NCBI GenBank assembly: GCA_916610825.1
Contig: OU744449.1
Coordinates: 1,240,001 to 1,304,000, forward strand
Source: Haliclystus octoradiatus
Taxonomy: Eukaryota; Cnidaria; Staurozoa; Stauromedusae; Haliclystidae
Reading direction: 5' to 3'
Length of the DNA: 64,000 bases
Shown here: piece after piece, positions 2,522 to 13,501 of the stretch
Layout: each line of letters begins with the position of its first letter
How positions within the stretch are numbered: the first letter of the stretch is position 1
Translations under genes and position numbers: made by a program
The notes under the pieces: model-generated
Seen by the model: the letters and a program-made list of their open reading frames with translations, nothing else
What the model was told of the DNA's origin: nothing
The model's database searches: none

Positions 2522-5500
2522 ATGGCTCAACCACAATTACTCGGATTTGATGAATTTGGACGTCCAATTGTTGTTTTGAAAGATCAAGACCTCCAGACCA
2601 GAGTAACTGGTCTACAAGCTATAAAGGTGTGTTTTACGAAGGAAATACATGATGTATAATCGGTGACTGCATCTTTGACATGTAATGCATGTGAACTGAA
2701 ATGTAAAATTATTTATGTTGTTTGCAGTCTCACATTCTTGCTGGAAAGACTGTGGCAAAAACTCTGCGAACATCACTCGGCCCAAGAGGTTAGTTGAAGA
2801 CGAGGATTCATGGAATATTCTGGGTGAATTGTCCCTATTTCCCCGATTTAATTTGTAATTGTAGCTACTCTGAAGGTTGACTGAAGCATTTGCGTGCTAC
2901 TCGACATTTGAATTTGTGGATTGTGGACATCAGATATATCATAGTCAAGTCTGATTCTCAGTTAAAGTCTGCTTAAATCTGTCTAGCTAGACGGCCTAGG
3001 CATATTTATCTCTTGATAATTTTATTTTTGTGATCTCAAAAACCATTGAATAAAAACTACGCCACGGCTATTTGACCGTCCTGCCGGTCAAATAGCTGTA
3101 TAGGGCTATTTGACCGTCCAGTTATACGCATGCGCAGTAGGTCATATTAAATTATCTGATTGTTGATGTTGACCAATCAGAAGTCAATTGAGTTTCATAT
3201 CCGGAACAAATTTACAGACTGGACGGTCAAATAGCTCTGTGAACTATTTGACCGTCCAACGAAATCAACATGGTTTTTACTGTCATTTATCTGATGTAAA
3301 GGCTGGACGGTCAAATAGATCCATGAACTATTTGACCGTCCAACGAAATCAACATGGTTTTTACTGTTATTTATCTGATGTAAAGGCTGGACGGTCAAAT
3401 AGCTCTGTGAACTATTTGACCGTCCAACGAAATCAACATGGTTTTTACTGTTATTTATCTGATGTAAAGACTGGACGGTCAAATAGATCCATGAAATATG
3501 TGACCGTCCAACGAAATTAGCAGGAGTTTTTACTGTTTTATCTGATTTATTGGCTGGTCGGTCAAATAGTTCACAGAGCTATTCAGTTCACAGAGTGGCA
3601 GAGTCTAGCGAAATTAACATGGGTTTTTACAGTTCCGTATCTGAATTACAGGCTGGATGGTCAGGCATGCAAAATGACAAGTACCAGTAATGGTATAGCT
3701 ATTAAGGTAGTTACAGGTATAGCTATGTTACAAACATGAATCGACTCTCGCCACTTACATTTCAATAGGTAAAATGGACCTAGGATAAGTGACTGGTCAC
3801 TATAACAGGTCACATGATATGATGCCAAAACTGGATTTGATGATCAATATTGATGACTGCTTATATCATAATTTCACGTAGTCAAATTTCCCTGGTAGAG
3901 GTATTGCATTCAATTCCTTATCCCATTCAGTAAATATTGCATGAGGAGACTGAAGAGTGAAGTAGTATTTTACTGTGTAGCTGTATACTGTTCCCAGAAG
4001 GTGCATTATTTTCTCCATATTTATTATCATCTAAATTCATGCCAAATCAAAATATATTTTGTAAGTATAAATTGCAGTTAGTAGTAGTATTACACAGAAA
4101 TTGACACAGGAAATAGTAAGCATACACAATTCTATAAACACGCCTGTCTCAGGAAAAACATGGTAATGAATGTTTACATACAAGAAGACAAGAAGAAGCA
4201 AATACAATGTATCAGTGTAGACTCGCAGGAGCTTGCAATAATTACATTACAAGGATATAGAATTTCAAAACCAAATAACGGACCCTAAAATAAATGTTTT
4301 TAATCCATCGAGAGTTTCGATTTAGTTATTGTTGCTCAGAATTGATAAAAAATCAGTATATCAATGTAGTATCTATCTGTAAACCCATATACCGTATATT
4401 ACCTGTTGTGTAGTGATATTGGAATTTTTTTATCAACATGACTATGCTATATTGATATTAAAGCTTTACCCATCGCAGCATTCTCAAATTGATATTAAGA
4501 TATTCGGGTAAGCAAAAGCCTATCATTTTCTATCATCTGACCACTTGATGGGTATTTGCACTTCTTCAGAATATCTACTATATAGGCGTCACAAAATGTA
4601 AATCAAGTTAAAAGTGGAAAACTATGAATTCTGAATAAGAATTAAAGATTCTGAATAAGAATTAAAGCTTTGACAGACTAATGGGGGAAATGATGTTGAT
4701 AGTGAACAAATGATATGTGACTTAGTGAGAAATACTGTAAATACATAATTTTATATTAGCAACTGTATGCATATCTCACATTTATGTTTAATTAGATATC
4801 TGAAAAGTCAAATAAATGATGCAGGCAGAGTCAAATTACTTTTGTTTGCAAGCTAGGCAGGAGGTTTTCAAATAGTTTCTGAGAAAAGTTGTAATGAGTA
4901 CAGTGCACAGAAGTAGAAATTATTGTTTCCTCAAGTCAAAAGGTTGGATTATGATTTATGATATTTTATCTTAGGCTATGCATGATCAGATGCTCATTTC
5001 CCCAGGCATCTGTATCAGAAAAGGTGATTGTTTTGATTGCAAGCTAGGATGCATGAGCTGCATAATAAATAGGAATATCAGCAGTGTTCTTTTTTCACAA
5101 CCCTACAATGAAAAATTAAATAACATTTTCTAAATATTCTTCTGTCAGTAATAATAAACAAATCCTCAAAAATACAAATGGCTGGTATGCAAGATAAGGT
5201 CACTAAATTTTGAAATATTGAAGAAAATGAGTACAACATGCATTCCATGAATCCACACACAACATAGACATGATAACTAAGGATTAAACAGATATTTTAT
5301 CATGCACTTTAGTATAACAAAGGTTTAGTATCACACTATGTGATAATTCCAATGACTGTATGACGCAATTAAGAGTCAAGAGCTTGGTACTGCATGAGTG
5401 CATGTCATATGGTGTATAGCCTTTCAAACTATCATCCCTATATACCCTGTCCAGTGTCCAGCATCATATCGAAATTATCTTATATACATTTCATTCTAAA

Positions 5501-8500
5501 ATCAAATCGTCCTATAGTGCCAACAAACACCACTGCTGGTCTGGTTCTGACAGTGCATCAAAATGAAGAGCAACCACTAGGATAAGGATTATGTATGTAG
5601 TTGTAGATAAAATAGAATTAATAGCCCATGGTCATTGCTCACATCTAAGCCTGGTCTACATTTCACTTTTAATTCCACATCGTGGTCTACAGGCTACAGC
5701 CACAAAACACAAGGCAAACATTGCAAGGTAGGCTACACAACTTGCAATAGCTTATCAAATATCAATATTATATAATTTACATAGACTGATATGGAATAAA
5801 ACTTACCGGGAACTTTTAACATTGCCTGGTTAGTGCTGAAAACTTGAAAAGCTTACTTTGAAGTGCTCAATATATTGCAGCCATCATAGCATCATAGCTA
5901 GCATTTAAAAAACAAATTCCGCTGATGGCGAATCACGTTTTCCAATCGATGTTATCCCGATAAGCTCGTCTTTTCCGTTTATAGAGCAATCAAATTATAT
6001 TTCTGCGGTAGACGGTATCATCCTCAACATATAACGTAATAATATAGCTACATCCCTTAAATCCCATATCAAATCATGCTCCAAATGGACAGAAATTATC
6101 ACTAGACTTGCAGATGAACCCAAATGATCATAAGTTTTCTTTTCTCATGTGAGTAAAATCAGCTACTGCGCAAGCGTGAGCGATCCATAATGGCTTCCAG
6201 CTGACGTCACTGGACGGTCAAATAGACACTTCGTAAAAACTATGTATGTAAAAATGACAATTGCATGATGCCCATGAAACTAACTTAAACTATGGGCCTA
6301 CTAAATTTCACAGGTTTCTACTTTCGTTCATATTTTGGTCAAATTTATCTAATCTTCAGACTTCATACACTAAACTGAAGACAGTTGATTGTGTGCGTCT
6401 TCCATCTCGCAAAACAAGAATTTGAATATTGTCTATTTTATCTGACATTGAACTATTTCTCATGCAGTTTATTTACCTTTTTCCAACTACTCCGTAGATC
6501 AGCTAAAATGTAGCAGTATCGCTTTCAATTACAAAAGCTTGACAATATCATCAATATGTGTCATTCTTGTTACATGTTGTCTTGCATCATGATCATCATC
6601 GTTCTGGTTACCGGCTAAGGACAAGATCTATGCTAAACCAACTATCAGCTTAAACAAGTACCAGACTCGAAAGATTGTCTCTTGAATAAAATTATGCTGC
6701 ACATTCTGTAAACATATATGTATGCACGTATCATTTGGATTTGATGATCCAATATCTCTGATTGTAGTTTTACCATAGCAGAAAGTATAATTGTCAAATA
6801 AAATAATAGCTCAAGGTTTGTTTGAGAAACCATAGGGTCTGTGAAGGATTCATGCCCAGCGAAAATAACACCTGAATAGATGATCAACACTGATAAAACA
6901 CTTTCACAAACTATTGATTGTCATCTCTCCTCAAAGCTAAGCTAGCTGTCAAGCTTGCTGCCGCCATAATGAACTGAATAGGATAAAGAAATGCATACAA
7001 TTTTCTACAACTCAGTGGAATTTGTTTGGTGGAACATCATCCATGACACATTAGCTCACAAACCCTGTTTTCAAAAGAACGTCTAGGCTAGTACTCAGGC
7101 TAGTCAAGCCATTACATAATTCTTAAGTTATTTATGTTGCTTTATGCAGGACTTGACAAAATCCTTGTCAGCCCAGATGGCGAAGTAACAATTACAAATG
7201 ATGGCGCCACTATATTAGATATGATGGACGTGCAACATGAAATAGCCAAATTGATGGTTCAGTTATCCAAATCACAAGATGATGAAATTGGTGATGGTAC
7301 AACTGGTGTTGTTGTCCTAGCTGGTGCACTCTTAGAACAAGCTGAACAACTTATAGAAAGAGGAATTCACCCAATCCGAGTTGCTGATGGTTATGAAAAA
7401 GCTGCTCAGATTGCAATAAAACAATTAGATCAAATTAGTGAATTATTTCCTGTTGATAAGGAAAGCAAGGAACCACTTATACAAACTGCAATGACCACGT
7501 TAGGATCAAAAATGTGAGTACTATAACTATAGATTATGTAAACTTGAAACTTAAAAGGTAGTGGTAGGCTAAATATAGAAAATTGCTTTACAAGAACGTG
7601 CTATACCTCATTCACCTAATATTTTGCAACACAAATCACATACGTTATCCAGAATTACATAACAAGTTAAGGTGTATATATCGCCTTTCGGGACACCAAC
7701 TTGTTTTCTATCAGTACATGTCATTGTTGCGTTTTTGGATAGCGCGACTCTTCCCCCTTCAAAATTATTGGACATGGTATTTTGGAGATTCTCGAGTCCC
7801 ACTTTTTGAAACCAAAAATGGAAGAGAATCATTTACAACCTTGATTTTCTGCCAAATACCATACCATATAACCATATATCTTATACGTCCCTTGGGTGCA
7901 ACCATAATCATTAGGATTCAATAATCACATAATCCCCTGTTGTAGTTTTACCATAGCAGAAAAATATTTTATGTATTATTCTAACATGCATAGATCAGGA
8001 TTCCTTGGTGTTGGTCCTTCTGGTTACTCACTAAGGCCAAGGTCTATGCTAAACCAATTATCAGCTTAAAACGAGTACAGGAGATCTTTCAATATCTTCT
8101 GGACACAATAAGGTGACACAAATATTTTGCTATTCATGTTTTGTAGTGGTGATATAGCTATAAGTCATTGGAGGCCTGTCTTCAATTAATTTATTTTCCT
8201 TGCATTGACATGATTTAACTTGAATAGAATATCGACATTTTCATGGTTTGTGGGACATTTATGTACAGTCAAACCTGTTATAATGGTCACTCTTGCAATG
8301 TCTATGATAGTATTTTATATTGAATCAAACCTGTATATAAAGTCCACCTATCTATAATGGTCAATTTATCTACCTCTTGTAGCTGGCCGTTATATACAGG
8401 TTTCACTGTAACAGTTCCATTTCAAAGTATGAATTATGTGCGATCTTGAAATTTACTGTCTGAAGATATAGATCTGAAGTTATTACGCTGAGCGTAAGCT

Positions 8501-11500
8501 ACATGGTTCGGCCTCAACTTTGTCTCATATCTTGTATTAAGCTCTATTCTGAAAGAAATTTCACTCCTACATACATTCATGCACAGGGTCCGGCAAAATG
8601 GATCCTAGGATTCTAAATCCCGGAAGGCTAGATGAAAGTTAAAAGTAAATTGAGAATTTTCTTATTTATATTTCAAACCTCATGCAAATAAAAACAGAAA
8701 GAAAGTTAAACATATTCTAGGATTCCGGAAGGCTAAACATTTGTCAGACACTGTTTACGTGTATGATCAGAGGTCACACTCAAATTAGTTTTGATTAATT
8801 TATTTTAAATAAAATCCATTTTATTATATAGTGTCAATAAGTGCCAGCGTCAATTGGCTGAAATTGCTGTCGATGCAGTCTTGTCAGTTGCTGATCTTGA
8901 ACGAAGAGATGTTGATTTTGAACTTATAAAAATGCAAACTAAAGAAGGTGGACAAGTTGAAGATACAATGTTAATCAAAGGTGTCATTGTGGACAAAGAC
9001 ATGAGTCACCCTCAGATGCCAAAGGTGAGACTTAAATTTGATTGCCAATGAACTGTAATGCTTGCAATATGTTTGTTACATGGTTTCTGTAATGTCTTGC
9101 TAACGAACAACTTAATCATTTAGGCCAGATTCTGAGTTGCCACCATGTCACAGCTGAGAATCACAGAAAAGTAATTGTAATAGCTACCATGCATAGATCA
9201 GGATTCCTTAGTGTTGGTCCTTCTGGTTACTCACTAAGGCCAAGGTCTATGCTAAACCAATTATCAGCTTAAAACGAGTACAGGAGATTGTTCATTATTT
9301 TCTGGACACAATAAGGTGATACATATATAATATTTTCTTATATAGTTGAAGGTGAGCTATGTGACTGCGTTCTTTACAGTGTAACCCTATTATGGATTGG
9401 AGATATATATGTTGTAGTTTGGCTTTTCACAAATATATCTGCTACCTACTTTTGCCTTTCATGTCATCATTTTCAAAATTTTTGCAATATTATTTTCTTA
9501 ACAGGTTTTAAAAAATGCCAAACTAGCAATATTAACATGTCCATTTGAACCACCAAAACCCAAAACAAAACACAAACTTGATGTTACCTCAGTTGAGGAT
9601 TACAAGAAATTAAAACAGTATGAAACAGAAAAATTTACTGAAATGGTCAAACAAGTGAAAGATACCGGCGCAACACTTGCAATTTGCCAATGGGGCTTTG
9701 ATGACGAAGCCAACCATTTACTTCTTCAAAATGAATTGCCAGCTGTACGATGGGTTGGAGGTCCAGAAATCGAGGTTTGTTAAAGGGACAACATTAACAG
9801 GGGCTCGCTGCGAGCTTAATTTTATATAACGCTTAGCATAATTCTACATTGACATTGTTGTATTCCTATATATTAGACTATATTATTACAATGCCAATAT
9901 CTTAGCTATATAACAATATAGTCTAATATATAGGAATACAACATAGAAGGATTTTGATCATTACTGCAGGTGACTGATATATACAGTGGCTGTTTAATAG
10001 AGGTCATTGTTAGACCTAATTTGATTGGTATATAAAAATAGTAGTCTATTTTCATTCTTGTTTTTTTTTTTAAAAAAACATTTACTGCATTTACATTTTA
10101 AAGCACTGAAAAAAGATTCCAAGAAATGTAACTGTATGACAAAATGTTATCCCATTTCAAGATTATTATTTGTTTCGCTATATTATTATTATGCATAGAT
10201 CAGGATTCCTTAGTGTTGGTCCTTCTGGTTACTCACTAAGGCCAAGGTCTATGCTAAATCAATTATCAGCTTAAAACGAGTACAGGAGATCTTTCAATAT
10301 CTTTTGGACACAATAAGGTGATACATTTATAAAGGCTTTTCACAAACTCCAAATCATGTAATACCCTGCAATTTATATGCTTCTCATACATTTTTATGCT
10401 GTGATGGCACAGTATTTGGCTCGAAGGATGTTAGTCTGCTTAAAATTCCTGATCAATAGCCTAGTCTTGGCTTGATCCAAACTGCAAACGAGATCTATTT
10501 TCTGGTGACGGACGGAATAAATTTGCAATTAATATTCCAGGGCAATCAAATCCCGGTAAAAGCAGAATGGGAATTTGTTGTAATTAATGAATGCAGAATG
10601 GCAATTGAGATTAATGTTGAAATATTTTTGTTGTTTAGCTCATTGCAATTGCGACTGGTGGTAGAATTGTTCCCCGCTTCTCGGAATTGACAACTGAAAA
10701 ACTTGGCTCTGCTGGCATCGTGCGAGAGTTGACGTTCGGTACCACTAAAGATAGAATGCTTGTCATAGAAGACTGTAAAAATACCAGAGCTGTGACTATT
10801 TTCATTCGTGGTGGTAACAAAATGGTATGCTATCATTATTATGTTTAAAATTATATTTATTAGCTTGATCTGATACATGTTTTGTCCCTACCAAGGTACT
10901 CATTAGAGACCTTTTTGATGGTGTAGATTGTCAGGTATCAAAGTATGTTGTTTACCGGTAATATTATCTCAATCTTTTGAATTTTTCTATCGGCTTGTAG
11001 ATTGTACAAGAGGCCAAACGCAGTATACATGACGCCCTTTGTGTGATTAGAAATCTTGTAAGAGATGGTCGCATAGTTTACGGAGGTGGTGCTGCTGAAA
11101 TTGCATGCTCATTGGCTGTCAGTGCTGAAGCAGACCAGGTATATATCTATGTTGACATAATATGGAGGATGAGAATAATATGTCAAGTGTTTGATAAAAT
11201 AGGGGGGCAGGACTGCGAGTCCTGGAAGATTGATTTCCAGGAGAATTTGTAATGCACACTATGTCTTGAAAATAAATCACTATCTTAATACTCCATGTAC
11301 ACCTATATATACATACGTACTCTCCAGCGTAGTCATCGCCAACTTTATAAATATACATGGCCATTATCAATTAGTTTAATTTAATTCATTAAGATGTTGA
11401 TGTGCATCCTGTTCATATATTGTACATCACAATGATTAATCATTACATGTCTTGATATCTTCTTTCTTCTTTGAGAAACATAAATGATAATTTTGCACAT

Positions 11501-13501
11501 GTCGCTACTCTTCTGTTGATGAATTATTGTGATCAGAAATGTTTATACATGTGCAAGACAATGGTCTGTTATACCGATTGCATCGTACCTGCATCGTGTG
11601 GTATTTGCAAACTGATGACAGAGACATTTTAATGTGGATAATTTGTAAGGTTAGGTTTGATGGTAAATGGTAACAGTAAAAACAATGTAATATTATCTTT
11701 TACTTAGGTCTCATCCGTTGAACAATATGCAATGCACGCCTTTTCTGATGCACTTGATAGTGTTCCAATGGCACTAGCTGAAAACTCTGGACTCAGTCCA
11801 ATTGAAGCATTAGCTCATGTCAAAGCAATGCAAGTCTCTGATAAAAATCCTCGTCTAGGAATCGATTGCTTGGACAAAGGAACGCACGGTAAGATAACTT
11901 ATGATTTAACAACTGTCTGTTTAAAAAGCGAAATTGGTGTTAATGTCCTAGTGGAATAGTAAGATCAACAGGGATCAGCAGAAATTACGTAGACCCCTAG
12001 GAATGAAATTAAAACTGGTGAAATCATTTTTTTATGGAAAGTACATGATTATTTATAACTAGCAATGAGTTATCTGCTCAGCTTGGTTGGATTGGGCAGA
12101 CCTTTACGGGAATAAATGAAAGGAGAGTTATAAATCACTCTCCTCAAAATGTTTAGGAGAGCTGTAGGAGAGTGATTTTGGAAAAAAACAAATGTCAGTG
12201 TTCATAGATAACTGACATCAAAAATAGTAGATTTGGTTTGTTATTCATCAAACTATAATCATTGTACAATATTTTTTACAACAAATTAAAATAATTTGTC
12301 ACATTTAGCAGTTTAAAAAAAAGTTGCGCCTTGTAAAAAAAAGTTGTGAAAAATTTGTTTTTACTTTTTTGTGATGAAAATATTTATCCGATTTTCCTTC
12401 AAAAAGTTGTATGTCTTCAGGAGCTTTTTCTGCAAATTTAATTTTATGAAATCCACTCCATTCGTAAAACTCTCTACTGATTTGACTATAAGGTTAAAAA
12501 GTTTAAAACGAGAGAAAAATCTACGATAAACGCACGCGACATAAATTGTAAACAACATCATTCTATACGATTAACATTATTCGAAATCTATTGTTTGAGA
12601 ACAATAGCGCATGTATTCCCATAACAACGCGATCAAATTTCACGCTGTTAGTCGAGTGAAATTTTAATTGATGTCGAGTGGAAAAGACGTAGCCAAAGTT
12701 TTACATCGATATAATTATACACTGCTGATTAAATCATTATATTAAATAATTTATTAGTTTGGATTAAATTGTCTTCAGTTTGGCTAAAGACAATATATTT
12801 CTTACCAATTTTTGTTTTACTTCAACTTCAAGAAAACAACATGCTCTTAAGGTCGTTAGTCGTTCGATCGACTGTTGGATTTAGATTTTTCAAAATAGTT
12901 TTCTTTGAAATTGAACAGAGACAGTTTTGATAAATAATTTATTAACTAATTAGATAATTATTATACTATTATAAATAAGGAAAGTGTATTAATCTTTGTA
13001 AGAAATCACAGTATTAATTTGTCAAGGCGCTCTATTAAACGCTCTCCATAAGTGTAAACAAGGCGCTCGAAGGCGCGCGAGAGCGATCGCGCGCCTTTCC
13101 CGTAAAGGTCTGATTGGGGAGATCCCTCACAAACAATTACAGTTATGAAGTAAAGCCACAAAGACGGCAACACGTAAAAATACATTTTGTTTTGATACGA
13201 AGGGTAAAAAACAAAAAGAAAAGGATATAAAACCAAGATCTAAACACAGATTTGAATAATGTTATCACTAGATAATTGTACCGTGTGGTGGTATAATTGT
13301 ACAATCTATGAGGCACACTGTTCAGTCTCTGAATCCTAAATATATATTGTGCTATTTATTTTGATTTATGTTTCAGATATGAAAGAACAGCATGTGATTG
13401 AAACGCTACACGGAAAGAAGCAACAAATCAGCTTGGCTACACAATTAGTTAGAATGATCTTGAAAATTGATGACATCAGAGTACAAGGAGGAGGACAATA
13501 A
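2522..13501 (+). CDS. CCT5: T-complex protein 1 subunit epsilon (CCT5), nine exons, complete
   Basis: CCT5 is one of eight paralogous subunits of the cytosolic TRiC/CCT chaperonin, which folds actin, tubulin and many other proteins in an ATP-driven double ring. Exons read: 2522-2626, 2728-2788, 7150-7513, 8832-9024, 9505-9774, 10639-10824, 11001-11138, 11708-11888 and 13377-13501. All introns are GT-AG and all phases agree. They join into 540 residues, against 541 in human CCT5 as I remember it. The ATP-binding GDGTT lies at residues 103-107, TSLGPRGLDK near 50-59, and subunit-typical segments such as [16 protein letters not shown] and [16 protein letters not shown] are kept almost unchanged. 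The start codon is the first ATG in a CACCATGG context. Introns 3, 4 and 5 each carry an H/ACA snoRNA-like element, and intron 2 carries a divergent one. Introns 2 and 8 carry transposons. Identity is certain; only UTRs are undefined. Confidence 0.98.
3064..3660. repeat. 84-bp tandem array whose unit is itself a palindrome
   Basis: From 3219 an 84-bp unit repeats four times (starts near 3219, 3303, 3387, 3471), with decayed fifth and sixth units near 3553 and 3651. Each unit contains the inverted repeat TGGACGGTCAAATAG ... CTATTTGACCGTCCA around a 9-nt loop. The same inverted motif occurs in non-tandem form at 3071-3120 and singly near 6212. ORFs of 110 and 95 codons on opposite strands come from the repeat and are not genes. 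Confidence 0.85.
3104..6228. mobile_element. Probable non-coding DNA transposon filling CCT5 intron 2
   Basis: CTATTTGACCGTCCAGT near 3106 is matched in reverse near 6212-6228. Both ends also carry a nearby GCGCAGTAG-like phrase in opposing orientation (about 3133 and 6167). I read this as terminal inverted repeats of a roughly 3.1-kb element, with its left terminus amplified into the 84-bp array. I found no clear target duplication and no transposase. The interior is AT-rich and otherwise featureless. Confidence 0.45.
6584..6706 (+). ncRNA. Divergent H/ACA snoRNA-like copy in CCT5 intron 2
   Basis: From about 6604 to 6660 this segment aligns with the three elements in introns 3-5, including the stretch TCTATGCTAAACCAA with its H-box match AAACCA. 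The rest has diverged but can still form two hairpins: GCAT/ATGC plus GATC/GATC on the 5' side, and CAGC/GCTG with AGAC/GTCT on the 3' side. An ACA follows at 6701-6703, three bases before the proposed end. It could be a paralogous guide or a decayed copy. Confidence 0.45.
7988..8123 (+). ncRNA. Candidate box H/ACA snoRNA in CCT5 intron 3
   Basis: A 136-nt element with canonical H/ACA layout. Hairpin 1 has lower stem GCATAGA/TCTATGC, an internal pocket (TCAGGATT and CCAAGG), and upper stem CCTTGGTG/CACTAAGG. The hinge holds the H box AAACCA. Hairpin 2 has lower stem ATCAGCTTA/TAAGGTGAC, pocket AAACGAGTA and GACACAA, and upper stem CAGGAGAT/ATCTTCTG. ACA follows at 8118-8120 with three bases after it. 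Pocket-to-box distances are 14 and 16 nt, as the family requires. Near-identical copies of the same length lie in the next two introns. Excision from the host intron is the usual metazoan route. The target is unknown. Confidence 0.72.
8266..8408. mobile_element. TA-flanked MITE, family 1, complete short copy
   Basis: It begins CAGTCAAACCTG after TA (8264-8265) and ends TTTCACTG before TA (8409-8410). Length is 143 bp. It lies in CCT5 intron 3. Confidence 0.75.
8589..8756. repeat. Dispersed repeat family B copy
   Basis: The copy contains two CTAGGATTC...GGAAGGCTA phrases in the same orientation and ends near GTCAGACACTG. It lies in CCT5 intron 3 just before exon 4. Confidence 0.5.
9191..9326 (+). 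ncRNA. Candidate box H/ACA snoRNA in CCT5 intron 4
   Basis: Same 136-nt architecture as the element in intron 3. Substitutions keep pairing: hairpin 1 reads CCTTAGTG against CACTAAGG, replacing a G.U with an A-U pair, and hairpin 2 reads CAGGAGAT against ATTTTCTG, using wobble pairs. The H box is AAACCA, and ACA lies at 9321-9323 directly after TAAGGTGAT. Both pockets are the same as in the intron 3 copy, so both would guide the same sites. Confidence 0.72.
9857..9942. repeat. Perfect 28-bp inverted repeat
   Basis: The arms at 9857-9884 and 9915-9942 are exact reverse complements, separated by 30 bases. The arms are AT-rich and contain CTATATATTAGACTATA. No target duplication was seen. It lies early in CCT5 intron 5, before the snoRNA-like element. 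Confidence 0.85.
10193..10328 (+). ncRNA. Candidate box H/ACA snoRNA in CCT5 intron 5
   Basis: Third 136-nt copy, in the same orientation as the host gene. Hairpin 1 is GCATAGA/TCTATGC with CCTTAGTG/CACTAAGG. The H box is AAATCA, still fitting ANANNA. Hairpin 2 is ATCAGCTTA/TAAGGTGAT with CAGGAGAT/ATCTTTTG. ACA is at 10323-10325 with three bases after it. Similarity to the other copies stops at about the predicted RNA ends, as expected for a duplicated RNA gene. Confidence 0.72.
12097..13112. mobile_element. hAT-like non-autonomous transposon in CCT5 intron 8
   Basis: CAGACCTTTACGGGAA at 12097 is mirrored by TTCCCGTAAAGGTCTG ending at 13112. ATTGGG lies directly outside both ends (12091-12096 and 13113-13118) as a candidate 6-bp duplication; 8 bp would be usual for hAT. 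Length is 1016 bp. The left subterminal region has AATCACTCTCCT/AGGAGAGTGATT pairing, and the right one is a GC-rich palindromic block (GGCGCGCGAGAGCGATCGCG). No transposase. Confidence 0.65.

Follow-up and report, generated by a model that had tools for sequence, protein, structure and literature searches.

What kind of element would occur, nearly unchanged, once in each of three successive introns of a single chaperonin gene? This question is raised by a 64,000-nt stretch of chromosome 4 of the stalked jellyfish Haliclystus octoradiatus (Cnidaria, Staurozoa; positions 1,240,001-1,304,000; hereafter the window), in which introns 3, 4 and 5 of CCT5, the gene for chaperonin CCT epsilon, each contain one copy of the same 136-nt sequence in the sense orientation. 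An initial annotation, made from the sequence of this stretch, had read the three copies as box H/ACA small nucleolar RNA (snoRNA) genes. We reach the same view with high confidence and regard them as paralogous intron-encoded box H/ACA snoRNA genes, the products of which would be processed from CCT5 introns, protected by a dyskerin core and act as guides through at least their first hairpin.

Three near-identical copies in CCT5 introns

Copy 1 (7988-8123; H box AAACCA at 8051-8056, ACA at 8118-8120) lies in intron 3 (7514-8831), copy 2 (9191-9326; H box AAACCA at 9254-9259, ACA at 9321-9323) in intron 4 (9025-9504), and copy 3 (10193-10328; H box AAATCA at 10256-10261, ACA at 10323-10325) in intron 5 (9775-10638), all on the forward strand and therefore sense to the host. 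The copies align without gaps, are 136 nt long each and share 94.9-97.0% pairwise identity over 133-136 nt. The coordinates, common length and shared orientation given by the initial annotation were thus reproduced exactly, as was the distribution of one copy per intron. Their position within the introns is not fixed: the 5′ splice site lies 166-474 nt away and the 3′ splice site 178-708 nt.

Outside the 136 nt the resemblance is lost. Between any two copies, identity falls to 0.4-0.6 within the 10 bases adjoining the element on each side, and farther away it is 0.0-0.6. The limits of similarity among the copies thus roughly coincide with the proposed RNA termini, as had been claimed, except for an AT directly upstream that is common to all three. 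With this dinucleotide included, the RNA of copy 1 may start 2 nt earlier, at 7986. From the point at which similarity stops we infer an RNA 3′ end three bases past the ACA; these bases are AAT, TAT and TTT in copies 1, 2 and 3, respectively.

The identity of the host rests on its exons, which we read from the sequence. Joined together, they encode 540 residues, and this protein matches CCT epsilon with 950.7 bits where the cut-off is 710.5, in agreement with the gene originally named. CCT5 spans 2522-13501 on the forward strand in nine coding exons (2522-2626, 2728-2788, 7150-7513, 8832-9024, 9505-9774, 10639-10824, 11001-11138, 11708-11888 and 13377-13501), with a TAA stop codon at 13499-13501 and AG/GT at all eight internal exon boundaries. 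Its intron 2 also contains 84-bp tandem repeats at 3202-3583 that include the palindrome TGGACGGTCAAATAG...CTATTTGACCGTCCA.

Fold, box geometry and class assignment

Folded alone with RNAfold, each copy is predicted to form a hairpin, a hinge with the H box, a second hairpin and an ACA followed by three bases. The fold energies are -40.5 to -41.6 kcal/mol and the z-scores of the three folds -4.31, -4.54 and -4.45; in 200 dinucleotide shuffles per copy, such stability was never reached. Hairpin 1 consists of a lower stem, GCAUAGAUC/GGUCUAUGC, and an upper stem, CCUURGUG/CACUAAGG. The H boxes (AAACCA, AAACCA and AAATCA) fit ANANNA and are unpaired between the hairpins in all three copies; the ACA is likewise unpaired and stands three bases from the 3′ end. 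When helices under 3 bp are ignored, the distances from upper stem to box are 14 and 16 nt in every copy. Both these distances and the full H/ACA form had been predicted on paper, and the computed folds bear them out.

We described the uniqueness of this geometry by folding every 136-nt segment that ends in ACANNN on both strands of the window (n = 2,834). A loose filter passed 31 of these segments, the four most stable of which lie at the three loci. A first strict filter passed no real segment and none of 8,502 shuffles; it missed the copies because their minimum-energy folds contain two base pairs within the hairpin-1 pocket, which is thereby partly closed. The final filter, which asks for a pocket in each hairpin and an upper stem 12-17 nt from its box, was relaxed after this first version and describes uniqueness rather than providing a blind test: it passed 4 of the 2,834 segments, all of them from the three loci, one of which is represented by two segments with alternative ACA boxes, and 0 of 11,336 shuffles.

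Comparison of each copy (in a stretch of 160 nt around it) with 4,227 Rfam families points to the same class. The best family in all three cases is the H/ACA family SNORA42/SNORA80 (RF00406), matched along all 136 positions of the model, with the ends as proposed. Its scores for copies 1, 2 and 3 are 25.3, 17.8 and 24.6 bits (E = 0.00099, 0.077 and 0.0015 in this small search). The second-best family is also H/ACA for each copy (SNORA50, SNORA35 and SNORA50). A low-threshold Rfam search over 7950-10360 gave 16 matches (E up to 10), which were led by microRNA families; among the others, copy 2 matched SNORA35 and copy 3 matched SNORA50. The microRNA families fall on an inverted repeat in CCT5 intron 5 (9856-9943; 42-nt arms, 4-nt gap), perhaps a miniature inverted-repeat transposable element, which attracts such sub-threshold matches.

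Several results weigh against the H/ACA assignment. The SNORA42/80 scores of the copies fall far below the curated cut-off of 70 bits, and no Rfam family reaches its gathering score anywhere in the window. In the low-threshold search of 7950-10360, copy 1 was without any H/ACA match up to the E limit of 10. Sub-threshold H/ACA scores also arise by chance, since a SNORA72 match of 20.6 bits, which we take as such a case, lies at 8706-8816 outside the copies. In the genome, SNORA42 gave no match among the 42 scored of 5,767 candidates.

The differences between the copies add to this side of the balance. Of 10 substitutions, 4 fall in paired positions, and the claim that such differences keep the stems paired holds for three of these, through G·U, but not for T130C in copy 1, which breaks an A-U pair in the lower stem of hairpin 2. 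Retention of pairing at the substitutions has P = 0.18 under random placement, no pair is altered on both sides, and pairing among the copies is not above that of column shuffles. The argument is thus a weak one, and we rejected compensatory change as evidence for an H/ACA RNA.

We also rejected orthology to SNORA42, given 17.8-25.3 bits against a cut-off of 70 and the result of the genome search. The copies have the same two-hairpin architecture as SNORA42/80 and, in the alignment of copy 3, a GGAU that occupies the corresponding position of hairpin 1, whereas by eye the 3′ half of the hairpin-1 pocket of copy 3 differs. We treat this likeness as a class resemblance rather than orthology, and the Rfam comparison lends modest support to the H/ACA class in that sense. 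Sequence, structure and genomic context together place the CCT5 elements in this class; they are very probably intronic H/ACA snoRNAs, still putative, with candidate target sites that are not convincing.

Metazoan H/ACA snoRNA genes habitually sit in sense orientation within introns of expressed hosts, and the CCT5 elements share this intronic position and orientation. Intronic processing, protein binding and guiding are general properties of H/ACA RNAs. By analogy, the CCT5 elements would be transcribed within the CCT5 precursor messenger RNA and their RNAs freed from the excised introns by exonuclease trimming. A core of dyskerin, NHP2, NOP10 and GAR1 would protect the RNA at the H and ACA boxes, and at least hairpin 1 would guide the isomerisation of a uridine in ribosomal RNA (rRNA) or another RNA.

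Further copies and the origin of the family

The paper on the assembly jrHalOcto1.1 gives 33 scaffolds, an 18.3-kb mitochondrial genome and a span of 261,898,343 (PMC9975415); the genome searched here comprises 261,861,806 bases (~262 Mb). A DNA search found five copies, and a pattern of the hinge core in the nucleotide code of the International Union of Pure and Applied Chemistry, allowing up to 3 mismatches, returned the same five, all forward and none reverse, with no hit for a reversed control pattern. As repeat counts from a DNA search, these numbers are lower bounds. All five copies lie sense in introns of host genes, either CCT5 or a vigilin-like gene.

Two of them were absent from the initial annotation. 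The fourth copy, in CCT5 intron 2 (6599-6661, forward strand), is degraded: it retains the 3′ arm of hairpin 1, the hinge and the start of hairpin 2, with 86% identity over 64 aligned nt. Its 5′ arm is not recognisable, and the fold of the 136-nt segment 6575-6710 is not more stable than those of its shuffles (z = +1.12). The fifth copy lies sense in an intron of the vigilin-like gene, on another chromosome, the host being recognised by KH-domain exons that match vigilin. This copy has lost ~20 nt of the hairpin-2 upper stem and has four unpaired positions in hairpin 1, and its H/ACA fold is gone. The next vigilin intron contains a 28-nt piece of the 5′ end of the element (local search, E 0.003-0.021). 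Three copies have thus probably stayed intact in CCT5 while two, in CCT5 intron 2 and the vigilin intron, have decayed. Intact and decaying copies stand side by side, and the turnover of H/ACA gene copies is therefore visible.

The unlike flanks probably reflect a spread in which the RNA unit alone was copied from intron to intron, although an old DNA duplication with flanks that have since decayed is an alternative history compatible with the same flanks. The 95-97% identity among the intact copies does not separate purifying selection from recency, because under RNA-mediated copying the flanks would have been unrelated from the start.

Copying through RNA is also what would be expected of a small non-autonomous mobile element, such as a snoRNA-derived retroposon or a short interspersed nuclear element (SINE). 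The CCT5 copies would then be recent inserts that guide nothing, with a fold inherited from the parent RNA. The sharp copy ends and unlike flanks agree with this origin, two further copies are degraded or have no hairpin-2 upper stem, and the likeness of the three intact copies may reflect recency alone. However, five copies were found within 3 mismatches of the core, with none antisense and none found with the reversed control pattern, and the DNA search found no fuller copy elsewhere. No exact 6-12-nt repeat occurs between the 30 bases upstream and the 40 downstream, and no A-run above 3 occurs around the copies, in any of the four examined (the three intact copies and the vigilin copy). The three intact copies, moreover, occupy successive introns of one gene. 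We consider a mobile element very unlikely on this evidence. Abundant copies with SINE-like tails, which the initial annotation had named as an argument against its own reading, were not what we found: the five copies, with neither A-tail nor target-site duplication in those four, join the geometry unique in the window and the first rank of an H/ACA family for every copy in support of snoRNA genes. The remaining alternative, a CCT5-specific intronic RNA structure that regulates CCT5 splicing, would account for one sense copy in each of three successive introns but is hardly credible beside a copy in an unrelated vigilin-like gene, the variable distances to both splice sites and a fold with H/ACA geometry.

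The same dispersed element, perhaps a SINE, was seen by eye at ~690-1060 of the window and, in reverse, at ~1660-2010 of the stretch L004. It has a transfer RNA (tRNA)-like start (GGATTAGCTCAGATGGC...), and one copy lies ~40 nt downstream of the snoRNA-like copy in the vigilin-like gene.

Related families and candidate targets

Genes for CCT subunits are known hosts of H/ACA snoRNAs. A review table places SNORA15 in an intron of human CCT6A and assigns it to 18S-1367 (PMC6466398), and in chicken TCP1 and CCT6A are hosts (PMC2653536). Likewise, vertebrates are known to carry paralogous snoRNAs in separate introns of a single gene (PMC2653536, PMC8178906), and in human only 7.3% of those H/ACA families that have at least two expressed members keep them in a single host gene (PMC8178906). 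The CCT5 copies resemble cis-duplicated snoRNA paralogues in being near-identical, sense and distributed one per intron of the same host, with an extra copy in a second host. They differ in their staurozoan host, and single-host clustering is less usual for H/ACA RNAs (PMC8178906).

The CCT5 family is a new case of a familiar type of RNA in a familiar arrangement. What it contributes is a well-supported candidate family of H/ACA type in a staurozoan genome, at a locus with the intronic multi-copy organisation described for vertebrates, and it leaves the view of how H/ACA RNAs work unchanged. Among the titles listed for snoRNAs of cnidarians and Nematostella there was no cnidarian snoRNA catalogue, in a search that did not name Staurozoa or Haliclystus, and among those listed for snoRNA, CCT5 and intron there was none on a CCT5 intronic snoRNA.

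SNORA15 invites direct comparison. Like the RNA in that review table, the CCT5 copies are of H/ACA type and lie in introns of a CCT subunit gene, and 18S U1367 is one of two 18S sites listed for their hairpin 1; the fit to U1367 is no better than chance (P = 0.23). At E up to 10, the matches listed for the three copies did not include SNORA15; for copies 2 and 3, each list omitted one lower-scoring match of an already listed clan. The genome itself contains four SNORA15-like matches of 39.6-50.8 bits, three of them above the Rfam cut-off of 47, and a DNA search returned the same four places. These H/ACA candidates lie on contig C2 at 38424696, 38426378, 38222648 and 38226519; judged by eye from exon peptides, two fall within introns of a gene resembling coatomer alpha, and one is near FF-domain-like exons. 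Because the genome has this SNORA15-like family of its own, on another contig, the CCT5 family is probably not SNORA15, and we rejected orthology. The result also suggests that H/ACA-type RNAs in H. octoradiatus occur as several intronic copies.

The target scan covered rRNA and used three pocket definitions. References were human 18S (1,869 nt) and yeast 25S, together with fragments from the species itself. The hairpin-1 pocket is AGGAUU ... CCAA, and against human 18S two sites were listed for it, U8 and U1367. U8, in the universal 18S 5′ end, forms 7+3 pairs, a fit equalled by 3% of shuffled pockets and by 8 of 1,000 random window pockets, with three pockets tried. U1367, which drew attention because of the assignment of 18S-1367 to SNORA15 of CCT6A in the review table (PMC6466398), forms 8+3 pairs with one mismatch, as do 23% of shuffles. 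At the equivalent of U1367, a rearranged 18S piece of the species reads ...TTCGGTTAATTCCGTTAAC, by eye with pairs lost on both arms. In yeast 25S, U1720 scores an unremarkable -13.6. The best single match, yeast 25S U2059 (-20.7; equalled by 3% of shuffled guides), was set aside, as it presumably falls within a yeast-specific expansion segment.

These results, too, count against guide RNAs. Hairpin 2, tried in two registers, did no better than chance, being equalled by 93% and 40% of shuffles, and with hairpin 1 marginal there was no convincing rRNA target in human 18S, yeast 25S and the fragments. 18S U8 is not known to be pseudouridylated in any animal. That a cnidarian or stalked-jellyfish H/ACA family uses hairpin 1 on 18S U8, to guide a new modification or to fold pre-18S, with amplification in three CCT5 introns as a dosage adaptation, is a speculation that we think very unlikely.

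Searches with two pieces of ribosomal DNA (rDNA) gave a rearranged unit and short fragments, and the complete 18S and 28S of H. octoradiatus were not found. Eight 10-kb stretches around the fragments and the unit had no Rfam match, and nothing was found on viral contigs. One 5.8S match was present among the 39 scored of 9,336 candidates, and it lies in the rearranged unit (contig C5:18942000-18947700). This unit consists of 5.8S, the second internal transcribed spacer and 5′ 28S; after these come 18S pieces that are displaced and broken by other sequence, and by eye the exons flanking the unit resemble a Cys-loop receptor. Eukaryotic 28S pieces around an R2-type-like retrotransposon were also seen by eye in contig JAMFSA010000192.1 of a Mucilaginibacter metagenome-assembled genome, a eukaryotic contamination of a bacterial record. 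Finally, the mitochondrial contig of H. octoradiatus carries COX1 with eight in-frame TGA codons and, by ARAGORN, two tRNA genes, the pattern expected of a medusozoan.

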